Under the pieces are notes generated by a model. The model was not told the DNA's origin and ran no database searches. It worked only from the letters and a program-made list of their open reading frames with translations. A program made the position numbers and the translations under genes. A stretch of 64,000 nucleotides of DNA from Gymnodinialimonas sp. 202GB13-11 (GTDB lineage Bacteria; Pseudomonadota; Alphaproteobacteria; Rhodobacterales; Rhodobacteraceae), in contig NZ_JBFRBH010000001.1 of assembly GCF_040932485.1 (NCBI RefSeq), positions 682,001 to 746,000 of the forward strand. Direction: 5' to 3'. Positions 11,120 to 18,424 of this stretch are shown here, piece by piece (position 1 is the stretch's first letter; the number at the start of each line of letters is the position of its first letter).

Positions 11120-12511
11120 TCAGGCGGCGGTGTCGGAGATCATGCTGACCTGATTGCGCCCATGGGATTTGGCGGAATAAAGCGCCATGTCGGCTTCATG
11201 GATCAGCATTTCCGGTGTCGCAAACCCGCCTAGATCGACAGGATAGGTCAGACCGACACTTGCCGTTACCTGAACTGGGGGCGTGCCGCCTTCGATATCG
11301 AATGGTGACTCGCCGATGGAGCGACACAGGCGCTCGGCGCATTCGACGGCGTCGGCATGGTTGATGGGCGACAGGCAAATCAGGAATTCTTCCCCGCCAA
11401 TGCGGGCCAGCAGATCACCGTTGCGCAATTGTGTGCGCAGACGTGCGGCGACTTGCTTCAAGATCGCGTCGCCCGCCCTGTGGCCAAAAGTGTCGTTCAC
11501 ATGCTTGAAATGATCGAGGTCGAGCATCATCACGGCTGGTCCCGGACCGGGGCGCGACATCATCAATTCCAGTTGCGGAATGGCGTAGCGTCGGTTGTGC
11601 AGGCCAGTCAGCGGGTCGCAAACTGCCGCCTCCAGCCCCGCGCGGACACTGGCGCGCATCCGGTCTGACTGCCGCTTGCGATCCAGTTGGGCTGAGATCC
11701 GGATCGCCAGTTCTTTGGCGTCAAACGGGTCGTGGAGCACGTCATTCGCACCAAGGTCCAGCGCAATTGCTGCCCGTTCGGTATCCCCTTCGGGCAAGAT
11801 CATGAGTGTCGCGGCATGGCGTGTTCCGGCGCGCGAGCGCAGGTCAGACAGCAAGCGCAGGCCCTCATTGCGCTGCGCCAAATCGACTGAAATCACGAAA
11901 ACGTCCGTGGACGCGCCGCTATCTGTGCTGGCCTCGGTCAACGCCGCTTCACGCGGGATGATGGCGACCGTTCCACCCAAGCGATCTTCAATGGCTGTTT
12001 TCCACAAGATCGCGCCGCGGGGACCGGGGGCCACAAGCGCCACCTTGCCGGGGGCCGCTTTTGCGCTGAAGCCTGCGGCATCCTCCGCAAAGCCGAATGC
12101 GGCGACAGTGTCGTTGCCGCCTTGGATTTCACGCACGGCATCGCGGGCCCTGAGCAATGATCGCACACGGGCGAGCAATGTGACTTCTTCAACAGGTTTG
12201 GTCAGGAAATCGTTGGCTCCCGCCTCCAAACCTTCCATTTTTGCATCTTGGTCGCTGAGCGCAGTGATCAACACAACTGGAATGCCGGATGTCTCGGGGT
12301 TAGCCTTCAGGGCGCGGCAGACGTCCACGCCGCTCATGTCAGGCATCATGATGTCGAGCAGGATCAGGTCAGGCTTCGTTTCGCGCGCCACACGCAATGC
12401 ATCGTGCCCGTTATCGGCCTGCTCCACACTGTAACAGGCAGCCGCCAGTTTGACCTTCATGACGATGCGATTGGTCGCCACGTCATCAACGATCAGAATT
12501 CGCCCGGCCAT
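11120..12511 (-). CDS. pleD: PleD-type response regulator diguanylate cyclase
   Basis: A 463-residue protein with REC-REC-GGDEF architecture. The first receiver (residues 4-120) has Asp53 in LLDIMMPDMSG and Lys105 in FLTKP. The second receiver-like domain (about 155-275) lacks a clear phospho-acceptor, as in Caulobacter PleD. The GGDEF domain (about 298-455) has the active site GGEEF at 372-376 and an allosteric I-site RNGD at 363-366, exactly five residues before it. Phosphorylation of Asp53 should dimerise the protein and turn on c-di-GMP synthesis, with product inhibition. It is divergent from the DUF3572 gene. Confidence 0.9.
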   Translation of the reverse strand: MAGRILIVDDVATNRIVMKVKLAAACYSVEQADNGHDALRVARETKPDLILLDIMMPDMSGVDVCRALKANPETSGIPVVLITALSDQDAKMEGLEAGANDFLTKPVEEVTLLARVRSLLRARDAVREIQGGNDTVAAFGFAEDAAGFSAKAAPGKVALVAPGPRGAILWKTAIEDRLGGTVAIIPREAALTEASTDSGASTDVFVISVDLAQRNEGLRLLSDLRSRAGTRHAATLMILPEGDTERAAIALDLGANDVLHDPFDAKELAIRISAQLDRKRQSDRMRASVRAGLEAAVCDPLTGLHNRRYAIPQLELMMSRPGPGPAVMMLDLDHFKHVNDTFGHRAGDAILKQVAARLRTQLRNGDLLARIGGEEFLICLSPINHADAVECAERLCRSIGESPFDIEGGTPPVQVTASVGLTYPVDLGGFATPEMLIHEADMALYSAKSHGRNQVSMISDTAA

Positions 12512-12627: not shown

Positions 12628-12906
12628 ATGCAGCAAGAAATTGCCGAGACGCAGGCACTCACCATTTTGGCGTGGCTAACGGGCGATGAAGAGCTGTTGC
12701 CGCTGTTCATGGGTGCCACGGGAACAGGTGAAGACGACATCCGGGCTAGAGCCGACGAACCTGAGTTCCTCGCCTCCGTCCTCGATTTCCTGTTGATGGA
12801 TGATCAATGGGTTCTGAAAGCCTCGGAAGGCACTGACATTCCAGCACAAAACTTCCAAATGATCCGGGCGGGGCTGCCTGGCGGCGCTGTGCCGGATTGG
12901 ACCTGA
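12628..12906 (+). CDS. DUF3572 family protein
   Basis: A 92-residue acidic cytoplasmic protein matching the alphaproteobacterial DUF3572 family: ALTILAWLTGDEELLPLFMGATG, then a conserved second helix block FLASVLDFLLMDDQWVLKA and an AGLPGG ending. Function is unknown; the predicted fold is helical. It stands 3 bp upstream of a HAD hydrolase, so both are likely one transcript. Immediately upstream lies a stretch rich in TTAA sequences with a near but inexact CtrA-like spacing. Confidence 0.88.
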   Translation: MQQEIAETQALTILAWLTGDEELLPLFMGATGTGEDDIRARADEPEFLASVLDFLLMDDQWVLKASEGTDIPAQNFQMIRAGLPGGAVPDWT

Positions 12907-12909
12907 GCC

Positions 12910-13602
12910 ATGGCTGAAATCGCAGGTATCTTGTTCGACAAGGACGGCGTGCTGTTTGATTTCCAGAAAACCTGGGGCGGATGGGCGGCGGATATGATCG
13001 CCGGTATTTCGCGTGGTGACAGCCTGCTGGCGCAGCGTCTGGCCGATGCTTTGGGCTACGATCTTCAGGCGCGCGTATTCCGCCCTGACAGTTTTGTGAT
13101 CGCAGGAACGGCACAGCAGGTGGCCGATGCACTGGCCGCTGAGCTGTCTGAATGGGAGCCGTCGGCACTTTTTTCGCATCTGAAGGAAGAAACGGCCCGC
13201 GCCAAGCAAGCCGAGTCTGTTCCCTTGCGGACTGTGCTGACTGATCTGAAGCGCCGCGACCTGCGCCTTGGCGTGGCGACAAACGACACGGTGGACGCGG
13301 CGAAATCGAACATCGCCAGCGTCGGCGCCCTGGACCTGTTCGACTTCGTATCCGGCTCAGATAGCGGATACGGCGCAAAGCCCGAACCGGGGATGCTTTT
13401 CGGTTTTGCCGAAGCCATGGGCCTTTTGCCCGAAACTCTGGTCATGGTCGGAGACAGCACGCACGATATGCACGCGGCCAAAGCGGCTGGATTTACGCGG
13501 GTTGCTGTTTTGACAGGCGTGGCAACGGCTGCCGACCTTGCCCCGCACGCGGACGTGGTCTTGCCTGACATTGGTGCGCTCGGGGATTGGCTGGACAGCT
13601 GA
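12910..13602 (+). CDS. HAD-family hydrolase (phosphoglycolate phosphatase-like)
   Basis: A 230-residue HAD-superfamily phosphatase. Motif I is FDKDGVLFDF (Asp10 nucleophile, Asp12 acid/base), motif II is the Thr/Asn of GVATND, motif III the Lys of YGAKPEPGM, and motif IV is MVGDSTHDMHAAKAAG. A helical cap lies between motifs I and II, as in Gph/PGP-type enzymes. It should dephosphorylate a small metabolite in the cytoplasm; phosphoglycolate is one candidate but specificity is unproven. It is co-directional with DUF3572 (3 bp gap). Confidence 0.88.
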   Translation: MAEIAGILFDKDGVLFDFQKTWGGWAADMIAGISRGDSLLAQRLADALGYDLQARVFRPDSFVIAGTAQQVADALAAELSEWEPSALFSHLKEETARAKQAESVPLRTVLTDLKRRDLRLGVATNDTVDAAKSNIASVGALDLFDFVSGSDSGYGAKPEPGMLFGFAEAMGLLPETLVMVGDSTHDMHAAKAAGFTRVAVLTGVATAADLAPHADVVLPDIGALGDWLDS

Positions 13603-13702
13603 CCGGGTCAAATACGACGCTCTGCCGTCGCATTCCGTCCATACACATGCGCAGAGGTTGGGGATGATGCCCCTGAACCAGCCAAACTGTCAGCGTGTCC
13701 TT

Positions 13703-15265
13703 ATGAATGAAGCCTCTCCTACCCCCCGCCGTCGCCGTGCCGGAGGCCGCGCCGCCGGAGCCGCCCGCGCCGCCGCCCATGTGATTGACCAGACGCCGTG
13801 GCGGGTGCCCGTCAACAATGACCGCCCGACCGAGCCGCTGGATGAAGAAGGCGTGCGCGCGATCCACAATGGTGCGATGCGCATTCTTTCAGAGCTTGGG
13901 ATCGAATTCCTGAATGACGAGGCCATCGGCCACCTGAAAGAAGCTGGCTGCAAGGTCGAAGGGCAGACGGTCTTCTTCGAGCGAGATTTTGTAGAAGAAA
14001 TGGTCGCCAAGGCGCCCGAGACTTTCACCATCACGCCGCGCAATCCGGACCGGACTCTAACCATGGGCGGCAAGCATATGGTGTTCGGCAATGTCTCAAG
14101 CCCGCCCAATGCTTGGGATATGGAGCGTGGGAAGCGGCCGGGCGACATGGAAAGCTATGTCGAGTTCATCAAGCTCACGCAGTATTTCAACTGTATCCAC
14201 TTCGCAGGCGGTTACCCGGTGGAGCCGATTGATGTACATGCCTCTGTTCGTCACCTCGATTGCCTGTTTGAGAAGCTAACGCTGACCGACAAGGTGGCCC
14301 ATGCCTACTCGTTGGGGGCAGAGCGCGTCGATGACGTGATGGAGATGGTGCGGATCGCCGGTGGCCTGACGCACGAGGAGTTCGGCGCCACGCCGCGGAT
14401 GTACACCAACATCAACTCGGTCAGCCCGCTGAAGCACGATTTCCCGATGCTGGACGGCGCAATGCGTCTGGCGCGGCGCGGGCAGCCGACTGTGGTGACA
14501 CCCTTCACACTGGCAGGAGCCATGGCGCCGGTGACGCTATCGGGCGCGGTGACGCTGAGCATTGCCGAAGGCTTGGCCGCGATTGCGCTTCTGCAATGGA
14601 TCGCGCCGGGATGCCCGGTTGCGATTGGCACCTTCACCTCTAACGTCGACATGAAATCCGGCGCACCCGCTTTCGGCACGCCGGAATATATGCGGGCCAC
14701 GCAGATGACCGGCCAGATGGCGCGGTTCTACAAGCTGCCGATGCGCGCCTCGGGCGTCTGTGCAGCCAACGTTCCGGATGGCCAAGCGATGTGGGAAACG
14801 GCGAATTCGCTGTGGTCAGCCGTACAATCGGGCGCAAACATGGTCTACCACGCCGCCGGTTGGCTGGAGGGCGGTTTGATCGCCAGCCCCGAAAAGTTCG
14901 TGATGGACTGCGAGTTGCTGCAGCAGATCCAGCGCTATTTCGAGCCGATGCTGCTTGGCACTGCGGAAGAGGACATCGCGATTGACGCGATCCGCGAAGT
15001 GGGGCCGGGCGGGCATTACTTTGGCTGTCAGCACACGCAGGATCGGTATCAGGAGGCATTCTATGGCCCATTCCTGTCAGATTGGCGCAATTTTGAGGCT
15101 TGGCGACTGGATGGTGCGGTCTGGACGGCGGAACGGGCCCACAAAACCTACAAGGACATCCTGAACGAGTTTGAGGCCCCGCCGATGGACATTGCGATCC
15201 GTGATGAGCTCGCGGACTTCGTGGCCCGTCGCAAATCTGAAGGTGGTGCGCCAACAGATTTCTGA
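13703..15265 (+). CDS. MttB-family (trimethylamine methyltransferase-like) protein, non-pyrrolysine
   Basis: A 520-residue protein of the MttB superfamily. After an Arg/Ala-rich N-terminal tail it shows the family TIM barrel, with segments such as LSELGIEFLNDEAI, NVSSPPNAWDMERGKRPGD, SVSPLKHDFPMLDGA, and EVGPGGHYFGCQHT near the end. The gene is read through without an in-frame TAG, so it belongs to the non-pyrrolysine branch. Characterised members of that branch demethylate glycine betaine or other quaternary amines onto a corrinoid protein. No corrinoid protein gene is adjacent. The start at 13703 follows the N-terminal pattern of homologues, although no good Shine-Dalgarno is visible; upstream ATGs at 13664/13667 are alternatives. 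Confidence 0.85.
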   Translation: MNEASPTPRRRRAGGRAAGAARAAAHVIDQTPWRVPVNNDRPTEPLDEEGVRAIHNGAMRILSELGIEFLNDEAIGHLKEAGCKVEGQTVFFERDFVEEMVAKAPETFTITPRNPDRTLTMGGKHMVFGNVSSPPNAWDMERGKRPGDMESYVEFIKLTQYFNCIHFAGGYPVEPIDVHASVRHLDCLFEKLTLTDKVAHAYSLGAERVDDVMEMVRIAGGLTHEEFGATPRMYTNINSVSPLKHDFPMLDGAMRLARRGQPTVVTPFTLAGAMAPVTLSGAVTLSIAEGLAAIALLQWIAPGCPVAIGTFTSNVDMKSGAPAFGTPEYMRATQMTGQMARFYKLPMRASGVCAANVPDGQAMWETANSLWSAVQSGANMVYHAAGWLEGGLIASPEKFVMDCELLQQIQRYFEPMLLGTAEEDIAIDAIREVGPGGHYFGCQHTQDRYQEAFYGPFLSDWRNFEAWRLDGAVWTAERAHKTYKDILNEFEAPPMDIAIRDELADFVARRKSEGGAPTDF

Positions 15266-15348
15266 TTCCCAAGGCTGCAAAGGGTTTCTTTACTTCTGCC
15301 CTCTACCGTCCCGGTGAGCAGTGGTTTCAATAAGAGGCAGCTAGCCAA

Positions 15349-15936
15349 ATGCATGGCATGATCAACGGTGCGTTCCAGGGGTTTCTTGTTGAAACCTATG
15401 GACGCGATACGTGGGACGAGGTGCGCAGCGTCGCACAGCTCAGGTTCACGGATTTTGAGGCGATGCTGCGTTACGAAGACAAGGTGACGCTGGATTGCTT
15501 CCAGGCCGCCACCGATGTGCTTCATAAACACCCCAATGCCCTTCTCGAAGATCTTGGCACCTTTTTGATCACGCATGAACCCTACGCCCCGTTGAAGCGT
15601 CTGTTGCGTTTCGGCGGAGCGACCTTGTCAGAGTTCATTCTTTCCCTGGATGAGCTGGCGGATCGCGGTCGTATGGCAATGCCGGATATCGAGATGCCAG
15701 AAATCGAGGTGTCACCTGGCGCGGAGGCGTCCTTTCGGATCAAGGCGGCATGGTCTTTGCCCGGTGTGGGGCCCATCCTTTTGGGTGCGCTGCGGGCGAT
15801 GGCGGATGATTATGGCGCGCTTGCCACGCTTAGCTTGGACGGGTTCGACGGCAACAAGGAGTGTATCCGGATCGACGTGTTCGACATGGCGCATTCCGAA
15901 GGCAATGCCTTCGTTTTGGGGGCGGTGCCGACATGA
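15349..15936 (+). CDS. H-NOX (HNOB) domain protein lacking haem ligand His and YxSxR
   Basis: A 195-residue protein that starts MHGMINGAFQGFLVETYG, the classic beginning of haem-NO/oxygen binding domains, and follows the H-NOX helical subdomain through to LSEFILSLDELADRG. At the position of the proximal haem histidine (aligned to His102 of the Thermoanaerobacter protein) it has Ala104. The haem-propionate motif YxSxR aligns with Ile131, Ala133 and Trp135. So the fold is kept but both haem-binding elements are gone. Its stop overlaps the ATG of a HNOBA-GGDEF cyclase (ATGA at 15933-15936), the usual H-NOX partner. It may be a haem-free adaptor, or it may bind another ligand. Confidence 0.85.
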   Translation: MHGMINGAFQGFLVETYGRDTWDEVRSVAQLRFTDFEAMLRYEDKVTLDCFQAATDVLHKHPNALLEDLGTFLITHEPYAPLKRLLRFGGATLSEFILSLDELADRGRMAMPDIEMPEIEVSPGAEASFRIKAAWSLPGVGPILLGALRAMADDYGALATLSLDGFDGNKECIRIDVFDMAHSEGNAFVLGAVPT

Positions 15937-16973
15937 ATATGCAAACCTTGCCGCCCGAGACTTTTGTTGCGATGCCAAGCGGTGTGGTGGATGCCTTGCT
16001 GCCGATGCATGTCCAGGTCGACGCGGGCGGCAAGATTTCCCATATCGGGCCTACGCTGTCGAAAATGATCGGCGACGGTCCCGTATTTGATCGGCCGCTG
16101 CTGGATCTATTCTCCATTCGCCGCCCTAGTGGCATCGAGACGTTTGACGCCTTGATGAATGCGGCGGACCAACGCCTGAGCCTTTGCTTGACGCGGGCGG
16201 ATCATTTGCCGTTCCGGGGGGTAATCTTGCCGCTGCAAGGGGAGGGCGGCGCGATATTAAACCTGTCTTTCGGTCTGTCTTTTGCGCGGGCGGTCGCCGA
16301 ATTCTCGCTCACGCTTTCAGACTTTGCGGCAACTGACCAAACTATTGAATTGCTTTACCTTAATGAGGCCAAGGCATCGACCACGCGACTGTCTGAGCAT
16401 CTGACTAATCGGCTCCAAAATGCCAACGCCATCGCACAGGAACAGGCCCGAACGGATGTTTTGACGGGTCTGTCGAACCGCCGGGCCATGGACGATGAAC
16501 TTGAGCATCTTATGGCTTGCCGCGGCCAGAATTTCACGCTGATGCACCTGGACCTCGACCTGTTCAAGCAGGTCAATGACACTCACGGCCATGCTGCAGG
16601 CGATGCGGTTCTGGTGGAAATCGGGCGCATTCTGGATCGTGAATTGCGGCGCAACGATTTTCCTGCCCGGATTGGTGGTGACGAATTTCTCATCGTGCTG
16701 CGTCCCGCGCAAAGCAACGACATTGCCGCCCGGATTGCCAAGCGCATTATTGAGCGCATAGAAGAGCCGATAGATTTGGGGGATGTCACTGTCCAAATCT
16801 CGGCCAGCATTGGTATCGCCTCAACGGCTGCCTATGCGACCCGTCCGTCGATCGAACAGTTGATGAACGATGTTGATGAAGCCCTTTACGACGCAAAACG
16901 CAACGGGCGCGGGCGGTTTTGCATCTTCATGCCGGGCCAAGACGAAAGTGCCATCCTCACAGACTTGGAATGA
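15933..16973 (+). CDS. Diguanylate cyclase with HNOBA domain (H-NOX partner)
   Basis: A 346-residue protein. Residues about 15-150 match the HNOBA domain found in soluble guanylate cyclases and in H-NOX-associated regulators, including LPMHVQVDAGGKISHIGP, a GVILPLQGEGG strand, and a conserved block around LSFARAVAEFSLTLSDFAATD. A signalling helix (about 150-172) leads into a GGDEF domain: D..LTGLSNRRAMDDEL, GGDEF at 248-252, and an I-site RRND at 239-242. It should make c-di-GMP under control of the preceding H-NOX-like protein, with which its start codon overlaps. No EAL domain is present. Confidence 0.9.
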   Translation: MNMQTLPPETFVAMPSGVVDALLPMHVQVDAGGKISHIGPTLSKMIGDGPVFDRPLLDLFSIRRPSGIETFDALMNAADQRLSLCLTRADHLPFRGVILPLQGEGGAILNLSFGLSFARAVAEFSLTLSDFAATDQTIELLYLNEAKASTTRLSEHLTNRLQNANAIAQEQARTDVLTGLSNRRAMDDELEHLMACRGQNFTLMHLDLDLFKQVNDTHGHAAGDAVLVEIGRILDRELRRNDFPARIGGDEFLIVLRPAQSNDIAARIAKRIIERIEEPIDLGDVTVQISASIGIASTAAYATRPSIEQLMNDVDEALYDAKRNGRGRFCIFMPGQDESAILTDLE

Positions 16974-17092
16974 ATGCAGCCGCTGCACTGCGGTCTCCCA
17001 TTCAGCACATTGGCGGTGACTGCACCTGTTCGCGTCCAGACCGCGCGCTAAATGCGATCACAATGGACAATGATCTTTAGAGCAGTCGGTGC

Positions 17093-18424
17093 ATGTCTGA
17101 AACGCCAATGAACCCAGGGCTGCGCCCGCGTGCCGTCCCGACCGGGCGCGTCGCACGGTTTGCGCGCATGGGTGGTCTTGCGACCGGGTTGGCGGGCCAG
17201 GCCGCGATGGCGCGGGCGCGGGCGGCTGTAACCGGCGCAAAGCCAGATATGGCCTCAGCTCTGATGACCCCGCGCAACCTGACCCGCATTACGGACCGCC
17301 TTTCGGAAATGCGCGGCGCAGCGATGAAGCTGGGTCAGCTCCTTTCGATGGAAACCGGAGACGTCCTGCCGCCGGAATTGGCCGGCATTCTTGCGCGCCT
17401 ACGGGCCGAAGGCGACGCGATGACGCCAAAGCAGCTGAAAGCCGTGTTGGAGGCGGCCTATGGTACTGATTTCAGACAGAATTTCAAAAGCTTCTCAACC
17501 GCCCCCTTGGCTGCTGCCTCAATCGGGCAGGTGCACCGCGCAGTCGCGCGCGATGGCATGCGGCTGGCCCTCAAACTGCAATATCCGGGTGTGAAGGAGG
17601 CCATCGACAGCGACCTCGACAATGCGGCGGGCCTGATCCGATGGTCTGGTCTCTGGCCCAAAGAGCTCGACCTTGCCCCCTTGATCGAAGAGGCGCGCAA
17701 GCAATTGCGTGAAGAGGCCGACTATTCGCGCGAAGGCCGGTACCTGACGCAATTCGGCACCCTATTGGCCGACGATGCGCGCTTCGCCGTTCCGGAGTTC
17801 CGGGAAGATTTGTCCACGGATGTCGCGCTTGCCATGTCGTTCGAAGACGCGGCCCCCATCGAGGCTTTAGCTGAGGCCGACCCAAAAGACCGCGACACAG
17901 CTGTCACCGCGTTGATCGAGCTTTGCTTGCGCGAACTGTTTGACTTCCGCGTCATGCAAACCGACCCCAACTTCGCCAATTACCGCTGGCGTGCGGAGAC
18001 GGGCCAGATCGTCTTGCTGGACTTCGGTGCCACGCGCGACATTCCCGATGCGCTTGCCGAGGGCCATCTGACGCTGCTCAGGGCCGGAGTGGAGGGGCAG
18101 CGCAGCGATGTCCTCGCGGCCCTTGAGGGCATCGGCTTCGTGAAGCCGGGTCTCAGCGCCGTCCACCGTGAGGCCATTCTGGACATGGCGGACCTTGGCT
18201 TTTCGGCGCTTCGGCAGCGTGACGCTTTTGATTTCGGTGTCACCGATCTGGCAAACGAGCTGCGTCAAAAGGGGCAGGTCATCGGTCAGGAGCGGGAGCT
18301 TTGGCATCTCCCGCCCGCCGATACGCTTTTTTTGCAGCGTAAAATTGGCGGGCTTTACCTGTTGGCCACCCGGTTGGGCGCGCGGGTTGATTTGCACCAC
18401 ATGCTCAAACGCTGGCTCATCTGA
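17093..18424 (+). CDS. ABC1/UbiB-family atypical kinase (COQ8-like)
   Basis: A 443-residue ADCK/UbiB-family protein. The KxGQ motif is visible in GAAMKLGQLLSMETGDVLPPE (near residue 77). The alanine-rich loop replacing the glycine-rich loop appears in APLAAASIGQVH, the catalytic Lys in LALKLQYPGV, and the metal-binding DFG in LLDFGATRDIP. This mitochondrial COQ8-like branch supports ubiquinone biosynthesis, probably through ATPase activity at the membrane. It stands alone between the cyclase and pcaHG; its promoter region (16974-17092) shows no clear motif. Confidence 0.88.
   Translation: MSETPMNPGLRPRAVPTGRVARFARMGGLATGLAGQAAMARARAAVTGAKPDMASALMTPRNLTRITDRLSEMRGAAMKLGQLLSMETGDVLPPELAGILARLRAEGDAMTPKQLKAVLEAAYGTDFRQNFKSFSTAPLAAASIGQVHRAVARDGMRLALKLQYPGVKEAIDSDLDNAAGLIRWSGLWPKELDLAPLIEEARKQLREEADYSREGRYLTQFGTLLADDARFAVPEFREDLSTDVALAMSFEDAAPIEALAEADPKDRDTAVTALIELCLRELFDFRVMQTDPNFANYRWRAETGQIVLLDFGATRDIPDALAEGHLTLLRAGVEGQRSDVLAALEGIGFVKPGLSAVHREAILDMADLGFSALRQRDAFDFGVTDLANELRQKGQVIGQERELWHLPPADTLFLQRKIGGLYLLATRLGARVDLHHMLKRWLI

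Follow-up and report, generated by a model that had tools for sequence, protein, structure and literature searches.

The window analysed here, a 64,000-nucleotide stretch of the genome of Gymnodinialimonas sp. 202GB13-11, carries on its forward strand two overlapping genes, the first of which encodes a homologue of the H-NOX (HNOB) proteins that has neither the proximal histidine nor the YxSxR motif. This gene (15349-15936) starts with ATG and encodes 195 residues, the first of which lies at the conserved MHG. Its product matches the Pfam HNOB profile (PF07700) with an E-value of 7.5e-19 and 68.7 bits (cut-off 25.5 bits) over profile positions 1-155 of 163, in agreement with the full-length homology proposed in the first-pass annotation. 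The second gene (15933-16973, forward strand) encodes a 346-residue HNOBA-GGDEF diguanylate cyclase, and its start codon (ATG, 15933-15935) overlaps the stop codon of the H-NOX gene (TGA, 15934-15936) in an ATGA. The cyclase matches the GGDEF profile with 146.2 bits and the N-terminal part of the HNOBA profile with 37.9 bits (cut-off 23.4 bits), and it contains an I-site RxxD (RRND, 16647-16658) five residues before the catalytic GGDEF motif (16674-16688), the latter being invariant in a 44-row alignment of partner cyclases. By these sequence criteria the partner is predicted to be an active diguanylate cyclase, and the same annotation had correctly noted the GGDEF motif, the I-site, the HNOBA domain and the overlap of the two genes. 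Above threshold, the genome has a single H-NOX match and a single HNOBA match, both of them at this locus (15349-16973), and a second H-NOX able to supply haem sensing was not found in it. The surrounding genes at 12628-18421 run consecutively on the forward strand, in the order DUF3572, HAD hydrolase, MTTB methyltransferase, H-NOX, cyclase and ABC1 kinase, and the order from the HAD hydrolase to the ABC1 kinase is common to the nearest relatives. Many relatives, the histidine-bearing L036 among them, likewise have an MTTB gene or the HAD gene close to H-NOX. The product of a second diguanylate cyclase gene, on the reverse strand at 11120-12511 and some 2.8 kb from the H-NOX gene, is a response regulator of the PleD type that matches receiver domains and GGDEF.

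Both haem-anchoring elements are missing from the window protein. In a gap-free alignment of helix F, codon 104 (GCG, 15658-15660) places an alanine opposite His105 of Nostoc H-NOX, the proximal haem-ligating histidine of haem-binding, NO-sensing H-NOX proteins, which confirms the substitution first recognised from the sequence. The same alanine is present in all 13 species of the genus, each with a full-length open reading frame, and a chance or sequencing effect is thereby ruled out. Codons 133-137 (A-A-W-S-L, 15745-15759) occupy the position of the propionate-anchoring YxSxR motif, with A133, W135 and L137 aligned to Y134, S136 and R138 of Nostoc H-NOX; the motif is thus absent, as had been claimed, although the residues named at the time (Ile131, Ala133 and Trp135) were read two positions too early.

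The rest of the fold appears to be complete. An AF2 model built with 96 subfamily sequences has a mean pLDDT of 89.8 and superimposes on Nostoc H-NOX (2o09_A) with a Z-score of 20.7 and an rmsd of 2.3 over 178 residues; its matches to H-NOX domains reach Z-scores of 20-21.5 and those to other folds at most 9.1. The structure prediction called for in the first-pass annotation thus yields an intact H-NOX fold. The model is slightly closer to soluble guanylate cyclase beta in its NO-activated state (Z 21.5, rmsd 2.0) than in its inactive state (Z 20.2, rmsd 2.4). A locked NO-activated conformation was considered and rejected, since the histidine-bearing Dinoroseobacter shibae control shows the same preference (21.0 versus 19.6), which is therefore uninformative on histidine loss.

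The gene is under strong purifying selection and shows no decay. Comparison with the three nearest relatives (82-93% identity) gives a dN/dS of 0.04-0.10 for the H-NOX gene and of 0.09-0.10 for the cyclase gene, exact values being rough because synonymous sites are near saturation.

The window protein belongs to a subfamily of H-NOX proteins that is marked by R84, R87 and F88 and by a MADDYG motif near the end of the H-NOX core. In the window this signature reads MADDYGAL (codons 151-158, 15799-15822), of which D153, D154, Y155, G156 and L158 are at least 97% conserved; with R84 and R87 and an HNOBA-GGDEF gene directly downstream, the protein is of the D. shibae type. A scan of named genomes found 80 relatives, nearly all labelled as Rhodobacteraceae or its genera, the nearest being Roseicyclus/Roseibacterium; in an alignment of these 80 and the genus members, histidine is almost absent from position 104, L036 being one sequence that has it. 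In a wider sample of Rhodobacteraceae, an HNOB match of either type was present in 297 of 395 genomes, and in two sets of genera preselected for some HNOB match the subfamily profile matched 77 of 80 and 76 of 80. Across the whole class, on the other hand, it gave only 11 matches in 385 sampled genomes, those outside the family being weak, and the outside matches that were inspected have both the histidine and YxSxR. By these scans the subfamily is essentially confined to Rhodobacteraceae.

When one genome was taken for each genus with a readable position 104, chosen irrespective of the residue, histidine was found in 10 of 148 genera; the other 138 (~93%, or about nine in ten) lack the iron ligand. 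The most frequent residues, counted by sequence, are Pro (109), His (10), Gln (8), Arg (6), Ala (4), Asn (3) and Gly (3), with others fewer. The first-pass annotation had proposed an alignment of Rhodobacterales H-NOX proteins as a check for a conserved subfamily; on the Rhodobacteraceae sample used here, that check identifies histidine loss as the majority state of the subfamily and not a local oddity. YxSxR was found in none of the aligned subfamily members, including those that keep the histidine, and the earlier view that the two haem elements were lost together therefore does not hold. The canonical H-NOX proteins of the family (L096-L124) keep both the histidine and YxSxR with few exceptions. 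A separate loss outside the subfamily was seen in a canonical-type protein (L135, G098:C4:117000-121000), which has an intact YxSxR and a glutamine at the proximal histidine position (GELQAEVHKLY).

The pairing with a cyclase is conserved, a cyclase homologue being found downstream of H-NOX in nearly every subfamily locus. Of the histidine-less loci that have a cyclase match, 236 of 245 keep both GGDEF and the I-site, as do all 14 histidine-bearing loci, although the loci in this count are partly redundant. Four loci that have room for a cyclase but no match to one (L096, L099, L112 and L118) all encode canonical-type H-NOX. At two other loci a histidine-less H-NOX lies beside a cyclase with GGREF (L187) or with no recognisable GGDEF (L196).

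The histidine-bearing members are scattered on the H-NOX tree, which requires a minimum of 13 changes between His and not-His, although its deep support is weak and the subfamily stem is long. A tree of H-NOX and cyclase together (95 rows) needs 10 changes; in a 42-row set, a single histidine-bearing clade is rejected by the AU test (p 2e-5), and no fewer than 5 changes are required by the well-supported branches. With outgroup rooting, histidine-bearing rows L134, L255 and L276 branch early, and the window protein falls in a histidine-less clade of 32 rows whose sister is L036. Judged from these trees, the state of position 104 has changed repeatedly. Because every outgroup used has the histidine, the simplest reading is that the ancestor had it too and that it was lost repeatedly; regain may also have occurred, since the codons for proline (CCC) and histidine (CAC) are one base apart.

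Other positions vary with the state of residue 104. Serine at alignment position 8 (window codon 15370-15372) is found in all 14 histidine-bearing members and in 53 of 215 histidine-less ones, and the position of the YxSxR arginine is mostly hydrophobic in the latter and more polar in the former, shifts that are as expected if the constraints on the pocket follow haem. Phylogenetically independent pairs agree in direction for Ser8 (about 4 of 5 supported pairs, never opposed; sign-test p 0.125), and the same test gave no coupling between Trp135 and His104. His98, common in relatives ('FLHSL'), was rejected as a replacement ligand: the window protein has Leu98, and His98 occurs alongside His104 in 9 of the 14 histidine-bearing members. 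There is also a lead, and only a lead, towards denitrification. Seven of 10 histidine-bearing genera encode nirS or nirK, compared with 45 of 138 histidine-less ones (Fisher p 0.03), and the figures for nirS alone are 6 of 10 and 26 of 138 (p 0.007), but the comparison was chosen afterwards and has too few tree-independent pairs to support it. Neither gene was found in the window genome.

Taken together, these observations are best explained if the window protein is a bacterial pseudo-H-NOX, which does not ligate haem and which, as a subunit of the HNOBA-GGDEF diguanylate cyclase encoded with it, regulates this enzyme independently of haem. We assign this reading a probability of roughly 60%. 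The absence of both haem elements, the purifying selection, the intact cyclase pairing and the recurrence across the family all point in this direction. In H-NOX proteins, NO breaks the iron-histidine bond and thereby moves helix F and the subdomains (PMC7108781, PMC8196705). With the proximal histidine missing there would be no such bond, and the usual NO switching would be impossible as described, so that haem most likely plays no part in the action of the protein on its cyclase. It would contact the cyclase directly, as the gene pairing and the analogy with D. shibae suggest, probably through the HNOBA/helical region, and might hold it at a fixed level of activity or gate it in response to a cue other than haem-bound NO. 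We consider a constitutive subunit more likely than a new sensor. Of the functional haem-independent sensor or adaptor proposed at first, the adaptor is favoured by selection, pairing, predicted fold and family-wide loss, and the sensor less so; the suggestion of a new ligand class gives way to a constitutive regulatory subunit, which explains the data with fewer assumptions.

The strongest alternative, though in our view an unlikely one, is that the protein still holds haem, either by means of another residue or weakly within its hydrophobic pocket, and is a gas or redox sensor with altered chemistry. Some features of the pocket do seem to persist, which speaks against a pseudo-H-NOX: Pro117, the equivalent of a haem-contacting proline in canonical H-NOX, is invariant even in histidine-less members, and potential ligands are available in the near-invariant His2 (202 of 215 histidine-less members) and the common His76 (157 of 215). 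Moreover, the D. shibae orthologue lacks YxSxR although PMC8846402 counts it among the haem-based sensors of NO, which would make the motif dispensable in this subfamily and, by analogy, haem binding without it possible. However, histidine-bearing members have His2 and His76 about as often, so that these residues did not arise as replacements, and the change of residue 104 mostly to proline and of the arginine position mostly to hydrophobic residues argues against retained haem.

Less probable still is that another small molecule occupies the vacated pocket and gates the cyclase, giving the H-NOX fold a new class of ligand. R84, R87, F88 and MADDYG are near-invariant, subfamily-specific and strongly constrained, and are not found in canonical H-NOX, which speaks for this reading; but they are conserved in histidine-bearing members too and hence give no pointer to a replacement ligand. 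The model also resembles a TRAPPC3 structure with covalently bound palmitate (Z 9.1), an indication that loosely similar folds can hold lipids, but the match is only at the level of common arrangements. In its evolutionary form, to which we give similarly little weight, the idea is that an ancestral NO-sensing H-NOX was turned repeatedly, across Rhodobacteraceae, into a haem-free receptor whose pocket takes another small molecule that controls c-di-GMP. If true, the H-NOX fold would gain a second ligand class in most genera of an abundant family.

A zinc/cysteine redox sensor is very improbable. There is a precedent in the haem-free H-NOX of Vibrio cholerae, in which cysteines at a zinc site sense oxidation and control of the kinase is retained (PMC7108781), but such a sensor would need at least three conserved cysteines in the C-terminal half. 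The only cysteines of the window protein are Cys50 and Cys172, neither of which is conserved in the subfamily. That the gene is a decaying relic under relaxed selection, a possibility raised by broken copies of the subfamily gene in a few genomes, is just as improbable and is contradicted by the dN/dS in the window clade, the full-length reading frames of all 13 genus members and the intact predicted fold, as is the pseudogene alternative raised in the first-pass annotation. These copies (G284:C24:241050-241625, L272; G208:C8:47617-48195, L289; G048:C34, L245; G073:C66 and C87), which carry an in-frame stop in two genomes and are apparently split in two others, indicate decay in some lineages, or possibly sequencing errors, as these are draft assemblies.

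The example of D. shibae is the basis on which Rhodobacteraceae H-NOX genes that lie beside cyclase genes are interpreted as NO sensors. Should the histidine-less majority bind no haem, most of these interpretations are wrong and no longer define the input of this c-di-GMP module. Reviews (PMC8846402, PMC7232146) that cover the work of Bedrunka et al. 2018 list the H-NOX of D. shibae among haem NO sensors and state that its NO-bound form inhibits Dgc1. The corresponding sequence in our sample is probably L125 (genome G047), which has His104 ('DDLHDRARLAV') and CxWxR in place of YxSxR. A 152,970-base replicon of this genome is identical over 2000 tested bases to plasmid NC_009956 of D. shibae DFL 12, and we identify L125 with the studied protein Dshi_2815 on the basis of its being the only H-NOX match in the genome and of its neighbouring cyclase. 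The D. shibae and window systems share the subfamily (41% identity), the gene order, MADDYG, the absence of YxSxR and an HNOBA-GGDEF cyclase with GGDEF and I-site. They differ in the residue itself: the D. shibae protein keeps His104 and is reported to inhibit Dgc1 through NO on its haem, whereas the window protein has Ala104. On this identification the characterised member sits in the histidine-bearing 7%, and its mechanism would not be simply transferable to the window; NO-dependent cyclase inhibition is reported for D. shibae only, and the residue it should need is missing here.

The canonical H-NOX proteins of Nostoc, Shewanella and Legionella (Hnox1, with a cyclase partner) resemble the window protein in being free-standing, full-length folds encoded beside an effector gene, and differ in having the proximal histidine and YxSxR. 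In one survey the proximal histidine was absolutely conserved in 598 H-NOX sequences (PMC7108781); these were selected by similarity to V. cholerae H-NOX, a choice that would have missed the Rhodobacteraceae subfamily. In the literature searched, which did not cover Bedrunka 2018, Rao 2015 and Iyer 2003, we found no description of a histidine-less bacterial H-NOX family. Haem-independent signalling by V. cholerae H-NOX is already known (PMC7108781) and is the likeness that it shares with the function proposed here, but that protein has a zinc-cysteine site and keeps its proximal histidine, and the window protein has neither. Also known is the alpha H-NOX domain of animal soluble guanylate cyclase, the 'pseudo-H-NOX', which binds no haem (PMC8196705). 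Like the window protein, it is an H-NOX fold, predicted in our case, that has lost the haem-binding elements and is paired with a nucleotide cyclase; unlike it, the alpha domain is part of the guanylate cyclase chain, whereas the window protein is separate, and an N-terminal extension blocks the pocket of the alpha domain, whereas the window protein has no extension and begins with MHGMIN at the canonical first residue. Histidine-bearing and histidine-less orthologues with the same type of partner within one family form a natural series for the effect of an H-NOX on its cyclase without haem, a question that also concerns the role of the alpha H-NOX domain in soluble guanylate cyclase.
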